From positions 62,001 to 126,000 of the forward strand of contig NZ_JACJSM010000012.1 in the NCBI RefSeq assembly GCF_014698145.1: a DNA stretch of 64,000 nucleotides. The letters are read 5' to 3'. This DNA is from Oscillatoria sp. FACHB-1406. Its GTDB lineage: Bacteria > Cyanobacteriota > Cyanobacteriia > Cyanobacteriales > Spirulinaceae. Below, piece by piece: positions 7,877 through 62,068 of this stretch. The position numbers and the translations under genes are program-made. Every line of letters starts with the position of its first letter. Positions within the stretch are counted from its first letter, which is position 1. The notes under the pieces were generated by a model. That model worked only from the letters and a program-made list of their open reading frames with translations. It did not search any database and had not been told where the DNA came from.

Positions 7877-7912
7877 TTCAGTAGGGGCGCATAACGATTC
7901 GCCCTTACAGTC
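7877..7912. repeat. Partial palindromic repeat (GTAGGGGCG...CGCCCTTAC)
   Basis: Downstream of the amylase gene the sequence GTAGGGGCG is followed after about ten bases by TTCGCCCTTAC, forming an imperfect hairpin. The arms match the inner part of the MITE-like elements at 43916 and 47651 (ATTCGCCCCTAC). Confidence 0.4.
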
Positions 7913-39685: not shown

Positions 39686-41128
39686 CTATAATTCCCTTAA
39701 AAAATAGAAGCGATCGCGCCGCCAACTCTCCCCCTTAATCCGTCCCGCATAACCCGCAAGCGGTGAAGAAAGCTCCACTAAAATTTCATGCAATTCTTGC
39801 TCCGATAAAGGTTGAGGAGCGTCGGGCGTGTGGTAAGCACCACTGAGCGCATCGACACTTGCCCGAGAACGTCCCGAATTTTCCAAGTAAGTTCTTAAAA
39901 CTCGGAGAACGTGCGATCGCAGCGCAATTGTGGCTTTAATTTCTTCAATAAATTGTGTGATGCTAGCGTTAGAATCTCCCGCTTGCAAAGCAGTTTTTAG
40001 CTGAAAGAGATCGACGGAATTGGGATAATTTGCTTGGAGCGCGACTAACTTTTCTAGCGTTTCTGGGTTTAAAATAGCCATACCTTCTTTTATCGCTGTT
40101 TCATTTAACTGTTTGGTTGGAGTTCCGGGGCCGATAATCAGTTTCGATGCCTCTTCAAATTCTGCCTTACTTTTTAAGCGTAACTTCCCTAAAGTGAGAA
40201 GCTGAATGGCTGTTGTATGGGGGATTTTTCGACCGGCTTTACACTCGCAAATCAAGGGGTAAGGTTGCGAGCAGAATACATCTAAACCTCCCGCGCCACC
40301 GCGATGAGAAGGGTCAATTTTAAAGCCTAAAAACTCCAAACTTTGCTTGACAACATTCTCAAAGTCTGTTCCTGCTTGATAATTGCTTTTGCCTTCATCT
40401 AGTTCCCGACTGCGGTTTCCGAGGGCTGCAATTTTTTTAACCCAATCCAGATCGGGGGGCGGTAAAGTTTTTTTTGAAGCATCGTATCGCCACCCCAAAA
40501 ACGTTTTTATCTTTTCATTCAAACTTTCAGCAGCAGAATTTCGGGGACTTAAGACGGCAAGATTGGCTTGCAAATATTCTAATTCTGGGTATGGGGGAGG
40601 AAGACGATTTTCTATGGAATTGCGGCGTTGAGAAAAAACGCGATCGCTAATTACAGGAGTTGTAGCCGGTATTTTCAACGGATGAGGGAGTGCAACAAAA
40701 TTCCCGCCCGAACGAGCGGAAATTTCAAGTGTTTCAGGAAGCTCACAAACGCGCAAGCCAGCGAGAAAAAGATAAGGCTTTTGCGAAAGGATTTTTTTGA
40801 AGGCTTCTACCTTCCAAATTGTTAGCCGCGAAAGCGTTTTTAAAGCATCCGATTCATCGACAACCAGACAAAACTCGCACTTTGCCCAGGCTCTAATCGT
40901 AACTATTGAAGAGGTATCGGCGTTCGCTCGCGCAACAGGCAGAAAACTGTAGCGATACAGTTCTTCGGGGGAAGAAAACAGCGCTGGCAATACGTCCGGA
41001 TAAAGCGCAAATACGCTTCCAACATCGAGCGATTTTGCCACCATTGCAACAATAATTCTGCCTTGAATTAATGCTTCAAGAGCGGGGGCGGGGATACGGA
41101 GTGCCAGTTCGATGGAATTTGAATACAT
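39686..41128 (-). CDS. Restriction-endonuclease-like protein of the 3-gene operon
   Basis: A 480-residue protein, last gene of the operon. Residues 250-300 carry a PD-(D/E)XK nuclease core in Mrr-like form: E257 (TDFENVV), D283 in GGAGGLDVF, and E295-x-K297 in ICECKAG. The N-terminal half, starting LALRIPAPALEALIQGR, may be a DUF1802-type domain (from memory, not certain) and could recognise DNA or a partner. The C-terminal 150 residues are helical. Start ATG lies 26 bp after the ATPase gene. Function is not known; a DNA-cleaving effector is the inference. Confidence 0.72.
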   Translation of the reverse strand: MYSNSIELALRIPAPALEALIQGRIIVAMVAKSLDVGSVFALYPDVLPALFSSPEELYRYSFLPVARANADTSSIVTIRAWAKCEFCLVVDESDALKTLSRLTIWKVEAFKKILSQKPYLFLAGLRVCELPETLEISARSGGNFVALPHPLKIPATTPVISDRVFSQRRNSIENRLPPPYPELEYLQANLAVLSPRNSAAESLNEKIKTFLGWRYDASKKTLPPPDLDWVKKIAALGNRSRELDEGKSNYQAGTDFENVVKQSLEFLGFKIDPSHRGGAGGLDVFCSQPYPLICECKAGRKIPHTTAIQLLTLGKLRLKSKAEFEEASKLIIGPGTPTKQLNETAIKEGMAILNPETLEKLVALQANYPNSVDLFQLKTALQAGDSNASITQFIEEIKATIALRSHVLRVLRTYLENSGRSRASVDALSGAYHTPDAPQPLSEQELHEILVELSSPLAGYAGRIKGESWRRDRFYFLREL

Positions 41129-41154
41129 ACATTTTTAGGCAAGTCTGTTACAGC

Positions 41155-43059
41155 TTAATTGCGCGGAATATTAAATTGATTCCGGAGGTCATTGAGCGTG
41201 TTATCTAAATCGTTGTCATCGGATATTGAGAAATCATCTCGAATGGATTCTGCGACCAAAATGGGTTCATCTTCAATTAAATCGGTGGGGACATCGTAGG
41301 AAGGATCGCTAAGAATTTCCTGCAAGAGCGGATTGCTTTCCCCTAACATAAGTTCTGCTCCTTTTTCCGCAATAAAAGTCTCGATTTGCTCTTCGCTGAG
41401 TCCGTAATCGACTTCTCGTTTATTATGAACGGCACGAATCGCCAGGAGAGGTTTGATTTCTGCTTCCTTCAATTCGACAAATTCTCCCCCTTGCTGGCGA
41501 ATTAAAGGCTCTAAATATTTCTGTTCGAGATAAGTCGTTATTTTTTTAGCTTTTGAACGAACTAAACAACCCCGCGTTAGCTCGAATTGTTCATAATCAA
41601 TTAGCCGTCGCAGACCCGCTCCTAATGCTTTTCTTCCCGCATACTGAAGAACCGACACGCCAATACTGACATTTTTATCGCCTTCCTTACCCAAAATCTT
41701 AAAATTGAGGTAAGAATCTCGCCCGCCTTTTGGGAAAACGCCATCGGTTACTTCGGTTACGATAATTCTTTCTATTGTTTTTCCAATTAAGGTTTTGAAG
41801 CCAAAGTAGAGCGCATCGGCAAGTAAATTATTATCGTCTATAATACTGTCAAAATCTAGGTCGAGTTCGGCGATAAAAGCTGTTTCAACTGGATCGGCTT
41901 TTTGCTTCTTCGGATCGCAGTTAACGCGACACCATTTTAATAATTCTCGAACCGTTGGCTTGTCATCTGCTAAACTGAGCAACTCTTTTTCTTCAAATGG
42001 ATAAAGGGGACTTGAAGGCGTTAAGTTTTCTCGTTCGTAATACTTTTTCAGCCACAGCGTTACAAAGCCGATAACTGAATTACGGTCGATGTAAGATAGC
42101 TTTAATGGCTCGCCTTGAGCAGAAACTTTATTATGAATCTGGTTGGGCAACTGCTTAATTTTATTTGTCCATTGAGCGGGCATCATCACTGTGAGAATTA
42201 CCCCTCGGTTGAGATTTTGAAGCAAGTCTTTAACTAAACAAGCAATAATTTGGCTCAAATGTAAGCCGATCTCCTCGTCCTGAGCATTTGGTTGATCTAG
42301 TTCATCGAAGCAGATAACTAATTCCTGATATTCTGAGATTAAATCCAAAATTTGTAAGACGGCTTCAAAGCTTTGATTTTGAGTCGGTAATTGCAGTTCG
42401 GCAGCTTTGGCTTGTGAGAGTTCTTGACCCTTCAGCCACTTCACCGCATAGGAAGCTTCAGGACTTAACGTTAAAAATACGGCGCGAACAATATCGGGGT
42501 CTTCAATGGCTTTAAGATTGCAATATAATCCCGATAATCTTTCAATCCATTGATTCGCTTGATTCGGCTCGGAAGTTTTGAACTTTTCGAGCAAATCGGT
42601 AACAGAATAAGCAGTCGTATTGGGATTCTTGTGATTCAAAATGTGATTCGTCATTGCTGTGGCTAGTTCTTGCCATTGCGTCACGCCTTGATGACCAATT
42701 TGCCCCAAACTTTCTGCTAATATCTGTTGAAAGCTATGCTTAATATTAATGAGATTGCTATATTTATTAGCATAAACAAAAAGTCCGCCGTTCTCACTTT
42801 GGAGTTGATGGCGGATGCGACTAATGATATGTGTTTTTCCGGTTCCGTCTTGAGCGGTAATCGCAATTGAAGTGGTAGAATATAGTCCGTCTCGAATTTG
42901 TTTTAAGGCTTGAAAAACAGCATCGGACGCATGAGCGTTGACACTTTCAACATCAAAAAAGTCCTGCCCCCAAATGTCTTTGGCGTTGACGTAGGGCGGT
43001 TTGGCGAAGGGATTGCGATCGCGGAGTGCTTCGTCGATACTTTGAGGGGAAGATGTCAT
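41155..43059 (-). CDS. Large P-loop ATPase of the 3-gene operon
   Basis: A 634-residue ATPase, middle gene of the operon. Residues 61-79 form Walker A (ITAQDGTGKTH) and 247-256 Walker B (ELVICFDELDQP), an ORC/STAND-like arrangement in which the ATPase follows a short N-terminal segment (FAKPPYVNAKDIWGQ). The C-terminal half (about 400-560) is uncharacterised, with a segment GVFPKGGRDSYLNFKI. ATG 43059 is chosen because the upstream frame to 43101 begins with TTG. It lies 50 bp after the winged-helix gene. Its homologues were not recognised as a named family. Confidence 0.75.
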   Translation of the reverse strand: MTSSPQSIDEALRDRNPFAKPPYVNAKDIWGQDFFDVESVNAHASDAVFQALKQIRDGLYSTTSIAITAQDGTGKTHIISRIRHQLQSENGGLFVYANKYSNLINIKHSFQQILAESLGQIGHQGVTQWQELATAMTNHILNHKNPNTTAYSVTDLLEKFKTSEPNQANQWIERLSGLYCNLKAIEDPDIVRAVFLTLSPEASYAVKWLKGQELSQAKAAELQLPTQNQSFEAVLQILDLISEYQELVICFDELDQPNAQDEEIGLHLSQIIACLVKDLLQNLNRGVILTVMMPAQWTNKIKQLPNQIHNKVSAQGEPLKLSYIDRNSVIGFVTLWLKKYYERENLTPSSPLYPFEEKELLSLADDKPTVRELLKWCRVNCDPKKQKADPVETAFIAELDLDFDSIIDDNNLLADALYFGFKTLIGKTIERIIVTEVTDGVFPKGGRDSYLNFKILGKEGDKNVSIGVSVLQYAGRKALGAGLRRLIDYEQFELTRGCLVRSKAKKITTYLEQKYLEPLIRQQGGEFVELKEAEIKPLLAIRAVHNKREVDYGLSEEQIETFIAEKGAELMLGESNPLLQEILSDPSYDVPTDLIEDEPILVAESIRDDFSISDDNDLDNTLNDLRNQFNIPRN

Positions 43060-43109
43060 GGTTAGAGTTGTGTGAGTGAGTGAGAACAGAAAAGAGGTCA
43101 AAAAATCAA

Positions 43110-43805
43110 TTAAGCGTTCAGACGTTGAACGTAGTAGCGCAATGCTCCCAGTTTTGTGGTAATAGAGTCTTCAGCGCGATCTGGGGTAATATCGGTGACT
43201 TCGCCGCCGATTAATTGAATTAGATCTATGGCTTGCATTTCCAGCAGCCATTCATTAAATTTGGTGCGAGAAACGCGATCGCTAATTTCGCGCCGAATCC
43301 GATAAATAGGAACGAGATTGTCTAAATTGTAATCTCGATTCAATCGCTCGTAGACTTCCAATGCCACTTTTTTAAATTCCTCGAGAGAAGAAATTTGCTC
43401 GGGCTGAAATGCAATTTTTTCTGCTACTGCTGATGCGGGCGCGCTACTCTCTAAATGCTTAATCCAGTTAAGTAAAGCGTTGAAATCTTTCGTTCTGACG
43501 CGCTGTTGCGGACGGTATTGAAAATCGGCGCTAATCAGACCGGATTTCAACATTTCTAGTCCTTGGGGCATTAAAGAGACGTTGACAGACCGCCCTTTTT
43601 TTGATACTGCGATCGCGCCTTTTTTCTCCAATTCGTCATAGACTTTTTGATAAACACTGTTAGACTCTTTACTCAGTTTGACGCGATTGGTCAGTTCGCT
43701 TTGCTTAACCTCTTTATCCATGCCGCCTAAGTCCCATAAACTCAGCAAAAGGCGGATTTTAAGTTTGGGATCGATCGCGGTTGAGGCCTTCGTTTTTGCA
43801 GCCAT
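43110..43805 (-). CDS. Winged-helix-like protein of the 3-gene operon
   Basis: A 231-residue protein, first gene of the operon. The N-terminal 85 residues look like a winged helix: LLLSLWDLGGMDKEVKQSEL, then KVYDELEKKGAIAVSKKGRSVNVSLMPQGLEML with a helix-turn-wing pattern. The C-terminal part contains a second possible winged helix (VPIYRIRREISDRVSRTKFNEWLLEM). It could bind DNA or regulate the operon. ATG 43805 is preferred; a longer frame to 43850 exists. No named family recognised. Confidence 0.7.
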   Translation of the reverse strand: MAAKTKASTAIDPKLKIRLLLSLWDLGGMDKEVKQSELTNRVKLSKESNSVYQKVYDELEKKGAIAVSKKGRSVNVSLMPQGLEMLKSGLISADFQYRPQQRVRTKDFNALLNWIKHLESSAPASAVAEKIAFQPEQISSLEEFKKVALEVYERLNRDYNLDNLVPIYRIRREISDRVSRTKFNEWLLEMQAIDLIQLIGGEVTDITPDRAEDSITTKLGALRYYVQRLNA

Positions 43806-43915
43806 ATTGAGTTTTTTGCGTGAATATTCGGAGAAGAGCGAATTTTCCAAAAAAATTGGAACGTTCTCTCACTCATCTTATCTCGCTAATCATCGCTTGC
43901 ACACAAACCTAAAGG

Positions 43916-44066
43916 TATAGCAGTTTTCACGTGGATGAGGTACACCCAGCGGGCGAATACCATTCGCCCCTACGGAGCGGCGTTTAATTTCGAGGCGACC
44001 TCGAAATCCGCGCCCCTACCGATTTGATTTTCGGAACTGTAACTCACGCAAAGGAAAAACGCTATA
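43916..44066. mobile_element. MITE-like element, family 2, copy 1
   Basis: 151 bp bounded by 29-bp imperfect inverted repeats (43916-43944 and 44038-44066; about 21 of 29 positions match), consensus TATAGC...TTTTC-N7-TGAGGTACA. The interior has GCGGGCGAAT and ATTCGCCCCTAC, which recur in copy 2 at 47651-47754. It lies immediately upstream of the winged-helix/ATPase/nuclease operon. Confidence 0.65.
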
Positions 44067-44133
44067 GCATAAGCACAATTGAAGATTTTCAACGCATCTT
44101 CAAGTGCGAGTACATCCACTTTCTTTAAACATT

Positions 44134-44161
44134 AAAAAAGGGACGTTGCTGCCAACGTCCC
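44134..44161 (-). terminator. Rho-independent terminator of the site-2 protease gene
   Basis: On the minus strand GGGACGTTG-GCAG-CAACGTCCC-type stem (44140-44161) is followed by TTTTTT (44134-44139). The stem has the same GACGTTG-N4-CAACGTC core as the palindromes at 10346 and 60458. Confidence 0.88.
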
Positions 44162-44199
44162 TCAAAAAAATTCATCGAAATATCGAAATTAGAGCGGTA

Positions 44200-45324
44200 T
44201 TAAGTCAGCGCTGCCGGTTTTTTGGTTTGCAACAACTTTAAGATAGAAGCCCTTTCGAGGAGTCCGAGAACTGCACCATCTTCGCGAACGACAGGCAACT
44301 GTTTTAACTGCTTGGATTCGAGCAACTTAATCGCCTCGAGTAGGGATAAATCGGCTCGCACGGAATCAACATCCGCCTCTAAAGATTTTGCGACTTCGCT
44401 AACGCGAGTTACCGTCCAATCGGAAGTTGCAATCGGTTTGAGGTCGTCGGCAGAAATCGTACCTACCCATTGTCCTGCTTCGTTCGTCACCAGGAATTTT
44501 TGCCAGCGCGTTTGCCCGATAACGTAATTGTTAGCAAACTCGCGTAAGTTCAAACTTTCGGAAACTAAAGGACTGTTGGGAATAACGGCATCTTCTGCGG
44601 TAAACCCGTCTAATTTATCTTGAGCGATCGCGGTTTGTGCAGAAACGCCTGCATTTTGTAGCAAAAAGAAACCGATGAGTAGCGTCCAAACGCTTCCGTA
44701 ACTACTAATCCCTAGAATCGAAAGTCCGCCGAGAATAACAGCGACAACGCCCAAAAATTGACCGACGCGACTCGCTGCAAGGATTCCTTTGTTGGGATTG
44801 CCCGTCACTTTCCACACCAAGGACTTAAGAACATTACCGCCATCGAGAGGCAGTCCGGGGAGGAGGTTAAACAGGGCGAGGACTAAGTTAATTTGAGCCA
44901 GCAGCCCGACGATAGGAGCGATCGCGTCAGGAAGGGGAACGTAAATTCCGACTGCACTCAACAATCCGAATAATATCAGACTGACGACCGGCCCCGCGAT
45001 CGCAACTGAGAAAGATTGCCAGGGCGTTTTCGACTCTTGCCCCAACATTGCCAACCCGCCAAAGATAAACAGAGTAATTGATTTGACTTCAATCCCCTGG
45101 CGCAATGCTACTAAACTGTGACCGAGTTCGTGGGCTAAAACCGAGGCGAACAGCAACAGCGCTGCCATTAAGCCTAATACCCAGGGTAGCAAACCCGCCA
45201 TTGGTAAAATCTGCGCTAAGTCTTGACCGAATTCCCACGTGACCAAACCTAACACTAAAAACCATGAAAAATTCACATAAAAGGGAATCCCGAAGAGGCT
45301 CCCAGCACGAATATTGCCATTCAT
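44200..45324 (-). CDS. Site-2 protease (M50) with CBS domains
   Basis: A 374-residue intramembrane zinc metalloprotease. The zinc motif is HELGH at 65-69, and the third ligand is D161 in NLLPGLPLDGGN. About six membrane helices are followed by two CBS domains (about 245-370), which bind nucleotides and may gate the activity. ATG 45324 is used because AAGGA lies seven bases upstream; an upstream extension to 45357 is less likely. It resembles Synechocystis slr0643/sll0862-type S2Ps whose substrates include anti-sigma factors, but the substrate here is not known. Confidence 0.92.
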   Translation of the reverse strand: MNGNIRAGSLFGIPFYVNFSWFLVLGLVTWEFGQDLAQILPMAGLLPWVLGLMAALLLFASVLAHELGHSLVALRQGIEVKSITLFIFGGLAMLGQESKTPWQSFSVAIAGPVVSLILFGLLSAVGIYVPLPDAIAPIVGLLAQINLVLALFNLLPGLPLDGGNVLKSLVWKVTGNPNKGILAASRVGQFLGVVAVILGGLSILGISSYGSVWTLLIGFFLLQNAGVSAQTAIAQDKLDGFTAEDAVIPNSPLVSESLNLREFANNYVIGQTRWQKFLVTNEAGQWVGTISADDLKPIATSDWTVTRVSEVAKSLEADVDSVRADLSLLEAIKLLESKQLKQLPVVREDGAVLGLLERASILKLLQTKKPAALT

Positions 45325-47650: not shown

Positions 47651-47754
47651 TCTAGCATTTTTCGTTGGCGTGAGGTACACCGCGCGGGCGAATGCTATTC
47701 GCCCCTACCCATCTATTGCAATTTTTGTACCTCATCTATTTGAAAAATGCTATA
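47651..47754. mobile_element. MITE-like element, family 2, copy 2
   Basis: 104-bp element. Both ends carry TAGCATTTTTC-N7-TGAGGTACA in inverted orientation (47651-47679 and 47726-47754). The interior GCGGGCGAATGCTATTCGCCCCTAC-type hairpin (split GCGGGCGAAT, ATTCGCCCCTAC) matches copy 1 at 43916. It is shorter than copy 1 by about 47 bp, suggesting internal deletion or divergence. Confidence 0.72.
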
Positions 47755-55129: not shown

Positions 55130-55180
55130 TGCATAGTGAATAAGTAGGAGAGTGTAAAAAAAGTGCGATCGAATTCGTAG

Positions 55181-55237
55181 GGGCGGGTTTAGCTAAGACC
55201 CTTGCTATGATGTAAATTCATCAGTCAAAACCCGCCC
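55181..55237. repeat. Inverted repeat GGGCGGGTTT...AAACCCGCCC
   Basis: Arms GGGCGGGTTT (55181-55190) and AAACCCGCCC (55228-55237) around a 37-nt loop, downstream of the ABC1 kinase gene. GCCCGCCCTAC at about 55260 echoes it, and GTAGGGGCG resembles the family-2 interior motif. Confidence 0.55.
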
Positions 55238-55342
55238 TCTTCAAGTTAAGGTGATTTATGCCCGCCCTACTTAGTTAGTCGTGAATAGTAGAGGGTTAGG
55301 ATAAAAGTGAATTGAAAACAATCGATTGACTTCCAACTCCTT

Positions 55343-61729: not shown

Positions 61730-62068
61730 ATGGTTAATCTAACTCAAGCTGCCGCCCGAGAAGTTCGACGCTTGCAAGCGAGCAACGCTAAACCCGACAC
61801 TTGCCTTCGCCTTGCAGTTAAAAGCGGCGGCTGTGCGGGTTTATATTATGTTTTGGAGTTGACTTCCGAGCCGGAAGCGAGCGATCGCTGTTACGTCAGC
61901 CAAGGAATTGCTGTCGCCGTCGAGGAACAAAGTCACGACTATCTCCACGGACTGAAACTCGACTACTCCGAAGACTTGATGGGAGGCGGATTTCGCTTCC
62001 AAAATCCCAACGTTCTCTCCCCTTGCAGTTGCGGTTATTCCTTTTCAGCCGAATTAGCCTCGATCTGA
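61730..62068 (+). CDS. IscA/HesB-like iron-sulfur assembly protein
   Basis: A 112-residue A-type Fe-S carrier. The three conserved cysteines are C35 (KSGGCAG), C99 and C101 (SPCSCGYSF), which bind a transferred cluster. N-terminus LTQAAAREVRRL is typical. It lies immediately upstream of the str operon on the same strand. It could pass clusters to photosystem I or other Fe-S proteins. Confidence 0.9.
   Translation: MVNLTQAAAREVRRLQASNAKPDTCLRLAVKSGGCAGLYYVLELTSEPEASDRCYVSQGIAVAVEEQSHDYLHGLKLDYSEDLMGGGFRFQNPNVLSPCSCGYSFSAELASI

Follow-up and report, generated by a model that had tools for sequence, protein, structure and literature searches.

Two intergenic elements of Oscillatoria sp. FACHB-1406 are very probably IS630-family MITEs that acquired GTAG-tagged REP hairpins

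The closest described counterparts of the elements reported here are the cyanobacterial MITE Nezha (Zhou et al. 2008, cited in PMC3733652 and PMC10969869), the GTAG-15 REP dimers of Anabaena variabilis, which lie within TATAGGA...TCCTATA palindromes (Di Nocera et al. 2013, PMC3733652), and QMITE2 of Coxiella burnetii, whose short copies resemble bare REPs (PMC5896051); for each of these we draw on the sections of the articles available to us. In those sections of PMC3733652, the movement of GTAG REPs by RAYT proteins is termed a hypothesis. As far as these partial texts extend, REPs nested in MITEs are found in the literature searched only in PMC3733652 and PMC5896051 (with the review PMC10969869). 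The same searches returned no name for the MITEs described below.

The window, 64,000 nucleotides of contig NZ_JACJSM010000012.1 of Oscillatoria sp. FACHB-1406 (positions 62,001 to 126,000), contains two short elements that we regard with high confidence as IS630-family (Tc1/mariner superfamily) MITEs with acquired GTAG REP hairpins. A preliminary description had placed the first at 43916-44066, a span that coincides exactly with copy 1 and both of its flanking TAs, and the second at 47651-47754, where we indeed find a MITE at 47653-47752 together with its 2-nt flanks. The features of the two copies, and of a related hairpin elsewhere in the window, are as follows.

43916-43917, no strand: left TA of the target duplication around copy 1
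43918-44064, no strand: MITE copy 1 (147-bp class; 46 own-genome matches, 20 elements of exactly 147 bp)
43918-43944, plus strand: left terminal repeat of copy 1, matching the degenerate pattern without mismatch
43951-43973, minus strand: GTAG-tagged REP-type hairpin (type 1) of copy 1 (G000:C12:105951-105973)
43973-44018, minus strand: 46-bp palindromic unit (type 2) of copy 1, the difference between the 147-bp and 101-bp classes
44038-44064, minus strand: right terminal repeat of copy 1, matching the degenerate pattern without mismatch
44065-44066, no strand: right TA of the target duplication around copy 1
47653-47752, no strand: MITE copy 2 (101-bp class, here 100 bp)
47653-47679, plus strand: left terminal repeat of copy 2, degenerate end pattern
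47686-47708, minus strand: GTAG-tagged REP-type hairpin (type 1) of copy 2 (G000:C12:109686-109708)
47726-47752, minus strand: right terminal repeat of copy 2, degenerate end pattern
47753-47754, no strand: TA, right of copy 2 (the left flank is TC)
7881-7908, plus strand: REP-like hairpin without MITE ends, the recurring fragment of the preliminary description

The inverted ends first said to be common to both copies hold as a degenerate pattern, TAGCRNTTTTC-N7-TGAGKTACA, which matches the ends of copy 1 and copy 2, and not as one fixed sequence: at its right end copy 1 has TGAGTTACA instead of TGAGGTACA, and its arms are imperfect inverted repeats. A repeat search of the window accordingly returned no arm pairs at copy 1 and one 15-nt pair in copy 2. 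Across the 5.47-Mb genome the end pattern with at most 3 mismatches has 79 forward and 79 reverse matches, compared with 4 and 4 for the reversed pattern under the same limit, so that the ends do exceed chance, as had been proposed. The genome search for terminal repeats suggested in the preliminary description, which had allowed for the case that no further copies exist, thus clearly reveals numerous ones. Used as queries, copy 1 and copy 2 matched 46 and 53 places of their own genome, the two sets overlapping, and the stretches fetched around these matches yielded 57 end pairs under loose limits. Three were dropped as artefacts (66-bp pairs that are right ends of the full-length IS), leaving 54 pairs, of which 23 span 100-102 bp and 20 span 147 bp; the main sizes are 101 and 147 bp, and these two classes, which account for 43 of the 54, are too short to encode a transposase. 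TAGGGGC or its complement lies inside 50 of the 54 pairs. Mean identity among the 20 copies of 147 bp is 92.6%, the true value being higher since two of them are out of register. Judged by eye, the larger copies of 192, 194, 197 and 261 bp are nests of palindromes like the 46-bp unit. Elsewhere in the genome, several MITE units, some of them 77-78 bp apart, form a head-to-tail run at G000:C8:147542-148179 (L111).

TA flanks both sides of 39 of the 54 end pairs, and is missing from one or both sides of the other 15, copy 2 included. The early remark that target duplications are not clear beyond TA was correct, TA being the entire duplication, and its extent can be read within the genome itself. 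The palindrome pattern AGACGTTGN{2,8}CAACGTCT has 69 matches per strand; among the 50 places listed, 33 contain the 20-bp core AGACGTTGTATACAACGTCT, seven are other 20-mers and ten are 21-mers, and none measures 22 bp. At C16:11322, a MITE stands in the middle of a AGACGTTGTATACAACGTCT palindrome with 12 bases on its left and 10 on its right; as the empty form has 20 bp, exactly TA was duplicated. The AGACGTTGTATACAACGTCT palindrome is an intragenomic empty site, and no second strain is needed to recognise it. The palindrome flank at this MITE carries GTAG too (GTAGAGACGTTG). An insertion preference for palindromic TA was considered and rejected, stems of at least 4 being present in 0 of 37 copies and 1 of 370 controls, in a weak test: the score of 0 for the C16 site is due solely to the joined TATA, which moves the centre of that site. 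As to placement, an ORF of at least 100 aa contains one of 37 TA/TA copies (the 39 less two with short flanks) versus 188 of 287 TA sites drawn at random from the flanks of these copies, and the detected copies are therefore mainly intergenic. The many copies, the IS630-type ends, the TA duplication with its intragenomic empty site and the intergenic placement bear out the label 'MITE-like' under which the elements were first noticed, and they tie a cyanobacterial MITE set to a transposase family and its target.

The assignment to IS630 comes from longer elements bearing the same ends as the MITEs, 99 bp into which 13 contigs of the assembly end. TA precedes all 13 of these ends; the six left ones are mutually identical over 99 bp, and so are the seven right ones. 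The left contig end opens the frame MKAYSTEFRQKILET, and the right one closes the frame EALAQAYAQVTEQDFRNWFTHCCYCTSLT, which runs into the terminal repeat; together they encode the beginning and the end of a transposase of the IS630 type. Because the assembly of this genome holds 99 bp of each end and no complete copy of the IS, we infer its intact transposase from these ends. Matches to EALAQAYAQVTEQDFRNWFTHCCYCTSLT were found in 17 of 39 genomes, the own genome included, and five loci in other genomes are whole IS of 1013-1033 bp with such ends (at most 5 mismatches) and with TA on both sides in all five. Four of these five have a transposase divided between two frames, and in L064 it is broken further. 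In L048, the one full IS that was scanned, the two frames score 110.9 and 62.1 bits against the IS630 model NF033545 (cut-off 100); PF13358 is matched by the C-terminal frame. We envision that the full-length IS, which by its identical copies has multiplied in the same genome, would supply a transposase acting on the MITEs. This enzyme would bind both parts of each end, TAGC-TTTTC and TGAGGTACA with 7 bp between them, cut the MITE out and insert it at a TA, which would thereby be duplicated; the GTAG-tagged hairpins would have been acquired by the MITE and then multiplied along with it. Judged from sequence, the MITEs are probably moved in trans by an IS630-type IS.

The sole DDE_3 protein of the own genome above cut-off (L040) was rejected as the partner, as no such ends lie nearby. 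Next to an IS630-like transposase gene, a 174-aa frame (G000:C13:68452-68925; L040:1960-2484, L150:2423-2947) resembles, over its own residues 5-168, the N-terminal part of eukaryotic actins, with a best E of 1.2e-97, and is cut off beside that gene. A PF00022 search of the own genome returned no second actin half and one weaker match of a different kind at C1. Microcystis PCC 7806 has a eukaryote-type actin, according to the part of PMC3254629 available to us.

Inside the ends, the core of copy 1 reads GTAGGGGCGAATGGTATTCGCCC on the minus strand, a GTAG tag followed by a hairpin. This type 1 hairpin, with at most 1 mismatch, has 56 + 51 matches in the own genome (control, 0). Of the 107, 100 were listed, and 59 of the listed places lie within 137 bp of a listed family end: 57 were assigned by script (130 bp) and two by hand, at 133 and 137 bp, in the 192- and 194-bp MITEs. 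Five more of the listed places are inside BLAST matches to the MITEs, and 36 belong to neither group, two of these being one place on both strands. Twenty stretches drawn from hairpin places away from, or next to, listed ends were inspected by eye, with six showing another MITE family, two (L165, L169) worn ends of the present family, and 12 neither. The other family (L156, L159, L164, L166, L170, L171) has the same hairpin core between TATAGC...GGACAA ends and measures 101 bp in the three stretches where both ends were recognised; in genome G008, two of four stretches show similar ends, by eye, flanking the hairpin. Searching with a pattern for the window's second MITE family yielded only two matches, with 3 mismatches. 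The interior fragment that the preliminary description saw again near 7877 does recur, at 7881-7908, and it is a hairpin without these ends adjoining, on which ground its reading as a broken MITE was rejected.

What distinguishes the 147-bp class from the 101-bp class is an added palindromic unit of 46 bp at the GTAG. The unit reads TAGGGGCGCGGATTTCGAGG...CGCCGCYCCG (short form TAGGGGCG...CCCCG), occurs in at least four sequence contexts, and is followed by T wherever its right end is readable (unreadable in 8 of 27 contexts). Both stems are paired almost throughout. The count took in 18 of the 20 copies of 147 bp (two are out of register), with the 8 type 1 pairs and, for the 46-bp unit, only the 9 inner type 2 pairs and not its outer stem; 305 of 306 stem cells form pairs, and two changes are two-sided. 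The stem AAT/ATT has become CAAG/CTTG in five copies drawn from both size classes. Some cores are unusual; a MITE-like place at C3:187670, whose second end is weak, has a hairpin of the GGTGGGC kind, and in the MITE-like copy at C1:118579 a CCCCCTAAATCCCCC repeat replaces the usual core.

The direction of the size change bears on how this unit is read. A deletion between two 9-bp GTAGGGGCG repeats could have turned 147 into 101 bp, an account of the 46-bp unit that is compatible with the MITE reading of the whole and to which we give slightly less than an even chance. The direct repeats GTAGGGGCG do bound the unit, and two odd-sized copies (120 and 124 bp) resemble, on inspection by eye, the products of such a deletion; yet the unit also occurs with the same constant ends in contexts free of GTAGGGGCG, namely the loop of a hairpin of its own type, a GGGGGATTT repeat, and alone.

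The own genome also encodes candidate REP transposases. A PF01797 search of the own genome found four proteins, three of which were covered by the NCBIfam scan (the fourth, on C36, was left out); two pass the model for REP-associated tyrosine transposases with 174 and 187 bits (cut-off 80), and the third falls just short at 79.2 bits. GTAG palindromes adjoin all three candidates, GTAGGGGCGGGTTT on C7, GTAGGGTGGGC on C30 and GTAGGGTGCGTTA on C4. They have the GTAG tag in common with the MITE hairpin and differ from it in stem sequence, and for this reason we link the RAYT candidates to the MITE hairpin by class, not by identity; one set of flanking palindromes has GTAGGGGCG in common with it. 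Within the window, a palindromic pair GTAGGGGCGGGTTT...AAAACCCGCCC at 55177-55240 resembles the pairs flanking the C7 candidate. We offer, tentatively and as a rather doubtful extension, that the MITEs serve as shuttle and recorder for a second transposition system, in which RAYT-type hairpins enter the MITE and the IS630 transposase multiplies them. Such hairpins would also jump into each other's loops, so that the size ladder of 101, 147, 192-197 and 261 bp would be a fossil record of hairpin insertions in which the states before and after can be read. MITEs that have or lack the 46-bp unit, and the same unit in other contexts with constant ends, form a multi-copy scaffold on which the hypothesis that RAYTs move GTAG REPs can be checked; if it were confirmed, sequence could reveal REP insertion rules. 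For specialists, the interest lies in the nested unit, which may record how REPs have moved.

The position of copy 1 raises the question of its effect on its neighbours, for which two further features matter.

43110-43850, minus strand: operon gene 1, a 246-aa frame with its ATG probably at 43805, present in 9 of 12 other genomes of the family
44138-44163, minus strand: terminator-like site after the site-2 protease gene

Copy 1 does separate the operon from a terminator-like site of the protease gene, as first described; this site, on the minus strand, is located between that gene and copy 1 (0.6 such sites are expected in shuffles of the 601-bp region scanned). The three-gene cluster itself (window 39686-43850, minus strand) encodes a protein without match, an AAA ATPase and a DUF1802 protein. 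Proteins 2 and 3 match AAA_16 and DUF1802, a domain scan of protein 1 gave no match, and PADLOC gave none for the three; NCBIfam matches of the ATPase lie far below their cut-offs, as with an anti-phage model at 26.6 bits (cut-off 370). Gene 1 and the ATPase gene occur together in 9 of the 12 other family genomes. Synteny of protease and operon was rejected, the protease being present in 0 of the nine relative stretches, and hence there is no orthologous empty site; MITE ends with at most 4 mismatches were likewise absent from these nine stretches.

Copy 1, with its TA, ends 111 bp upstream of the likely ATG at 43805. A -10-like hexamer is found 68-70 bp before the start in four of the nine relatives, which are two same-genus pairs and so do not count as four independent cases, and is elsewhere or ambiguous in the remaining five; here a weak TAAGAT, with 4 of 6 consensus bases, stands 75 bp before the operon start. 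A sigma-70 scan of 43700-44300 returned no promoter-like site. On account of the hexamer positions, the core promoter of the operon probably lies outside copy 1, between the element and the gene, and the earlier proposal that copy 1 could alter the operon's promoter is left unsupported. Copy 1 may affect upstream regulation of the operon; most likely it is a neutral intergenic passenger. The broader idea that the elements are selected cis-regulatory or RNA structures of their neighbours, such as promoter modules or attenuators, and not mobile DNA, can draw on their intergenic location and on strong predicted folds of the two strands of copy 1 (-54.7 and -57.9 kcal/mol, values without a shuffle control), but we judge it highly improbable given that this sequence is repeated dozens of times in the genome, flanked by TA and with ends common to an IS, and that the stretches examined from nine relatives with operon gene 1 contain no such end at up to 4 mismatches.

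Elements with these ends extend well beyond this genome. The end pattern with at most 1 mismatch is present in 35 of 59 genomes, the own genome included, compared with one match for the reversed control; no other genome listed in this search is marked as congeneric. A scan of a contig collection for an end plus the REP core gave 84 stretches, 80 of them listed and read, with 76 cyanobacterial and 8 other places. A second end is present in 41 of the 76 cyanobacterial places (86-104 bp overall), with TA/TA in 39 of the 41, and is found in none of the eight others and in one of 76 after shuffling of the downstream sequence; the eight non-cyanobacterial places are probably chance matches. REP-cored MITEs with such ends exist in other cyanobacteria.

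From other genomes we fetched 40 loci, 36 chosen by their ends and four (G008) by their REP. An end pair was found under a loose rule in 33 of the 36 end-chosen loci, and with at most 5 mismatches per end in 23. The interior stem exceeds all 60 shuffles in only four of these 23 pairs (L275, L286, L294, L301), and a required central palindrome, for example a cruciform hinge that brings together the ends of a 100-bp element, was therefore set aside as not general. By eye, six of ten G053 loci (L273, L275, L276, L278, L280, L281) and two of G035 (L282, L283) have heptamer-like tandem repeats between the same IS630-type ends. The interior is a GAAACCGGGTTTC palindrome in G043 and a GTAG palindrome in G044, and two of three G023 interiors show no clear palindrome. 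Given interiors this varied, such ends can carry other small repeats, and the palindrome is dispensable. That the whole element is instead a REP/RAYT (HUH) product, with a mobile REP core and outer arms that are merely its habitual target, is scarcely credible, since, for all that the hairpin lacks these ends at 36 of 100 listed places and recurs, in 6 of 20 fetched stretches, in a second MITE family with different ends, the arms belong to an IS630 element and duplicate TA, and in other genomes they mostly enclose DNA with no clear palindrome, such as heptamer tandem repeats.

The reading as IS630-family MITEs with acquired REP hairpins also defines how these elements stand among described systems, as far as the available sections of the sources allow. 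Like Nezha, they are short non-coding cyanobacterial MITEs with inverted ends (PMC3733652, PMC10969869), a likeness at the level of class. Systems of REPs and RAYTs (PMC2817692, PMC3116915; NF047646) have in common with this genome the GTAG tag, the palindrome and RAYT candidates flanked by GTAG palindromes, as described in the parts at hand; unlike in those systems, more than half of the hairpin places listed here fall within, or next to, an element whose ends are of the DDE type. QMITE2 is, as here, a MITE containing a GTAG REP, but its direct repeats are of 7-11 nt and variable sequence, in place of TA (PMC5896051, in the portion available), and the word RAYT is absent from the text on QMITE2. 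In Anabaena variabilis, another cyanobacterium, GTAG REPs also lie regularly within a longer palindrome starting with TATA, whose end sequence differs from the one found here; the authors speak of 'target palindromes' and, in the sections available, make no link to an IS or to TA duplication (PMC3733652). By analogy, we consider these Anabaena palindromes to be probably of the same composite kind. Taken together, REPs in a TATA-ended palindrome (PMC3733652) and a GTAG REP in a MITE (PMC5896051) are precedents within the parts of these articles consulted, and the IS630-derived MITE with REP cargo is a known class, of which the present copies are a further member.
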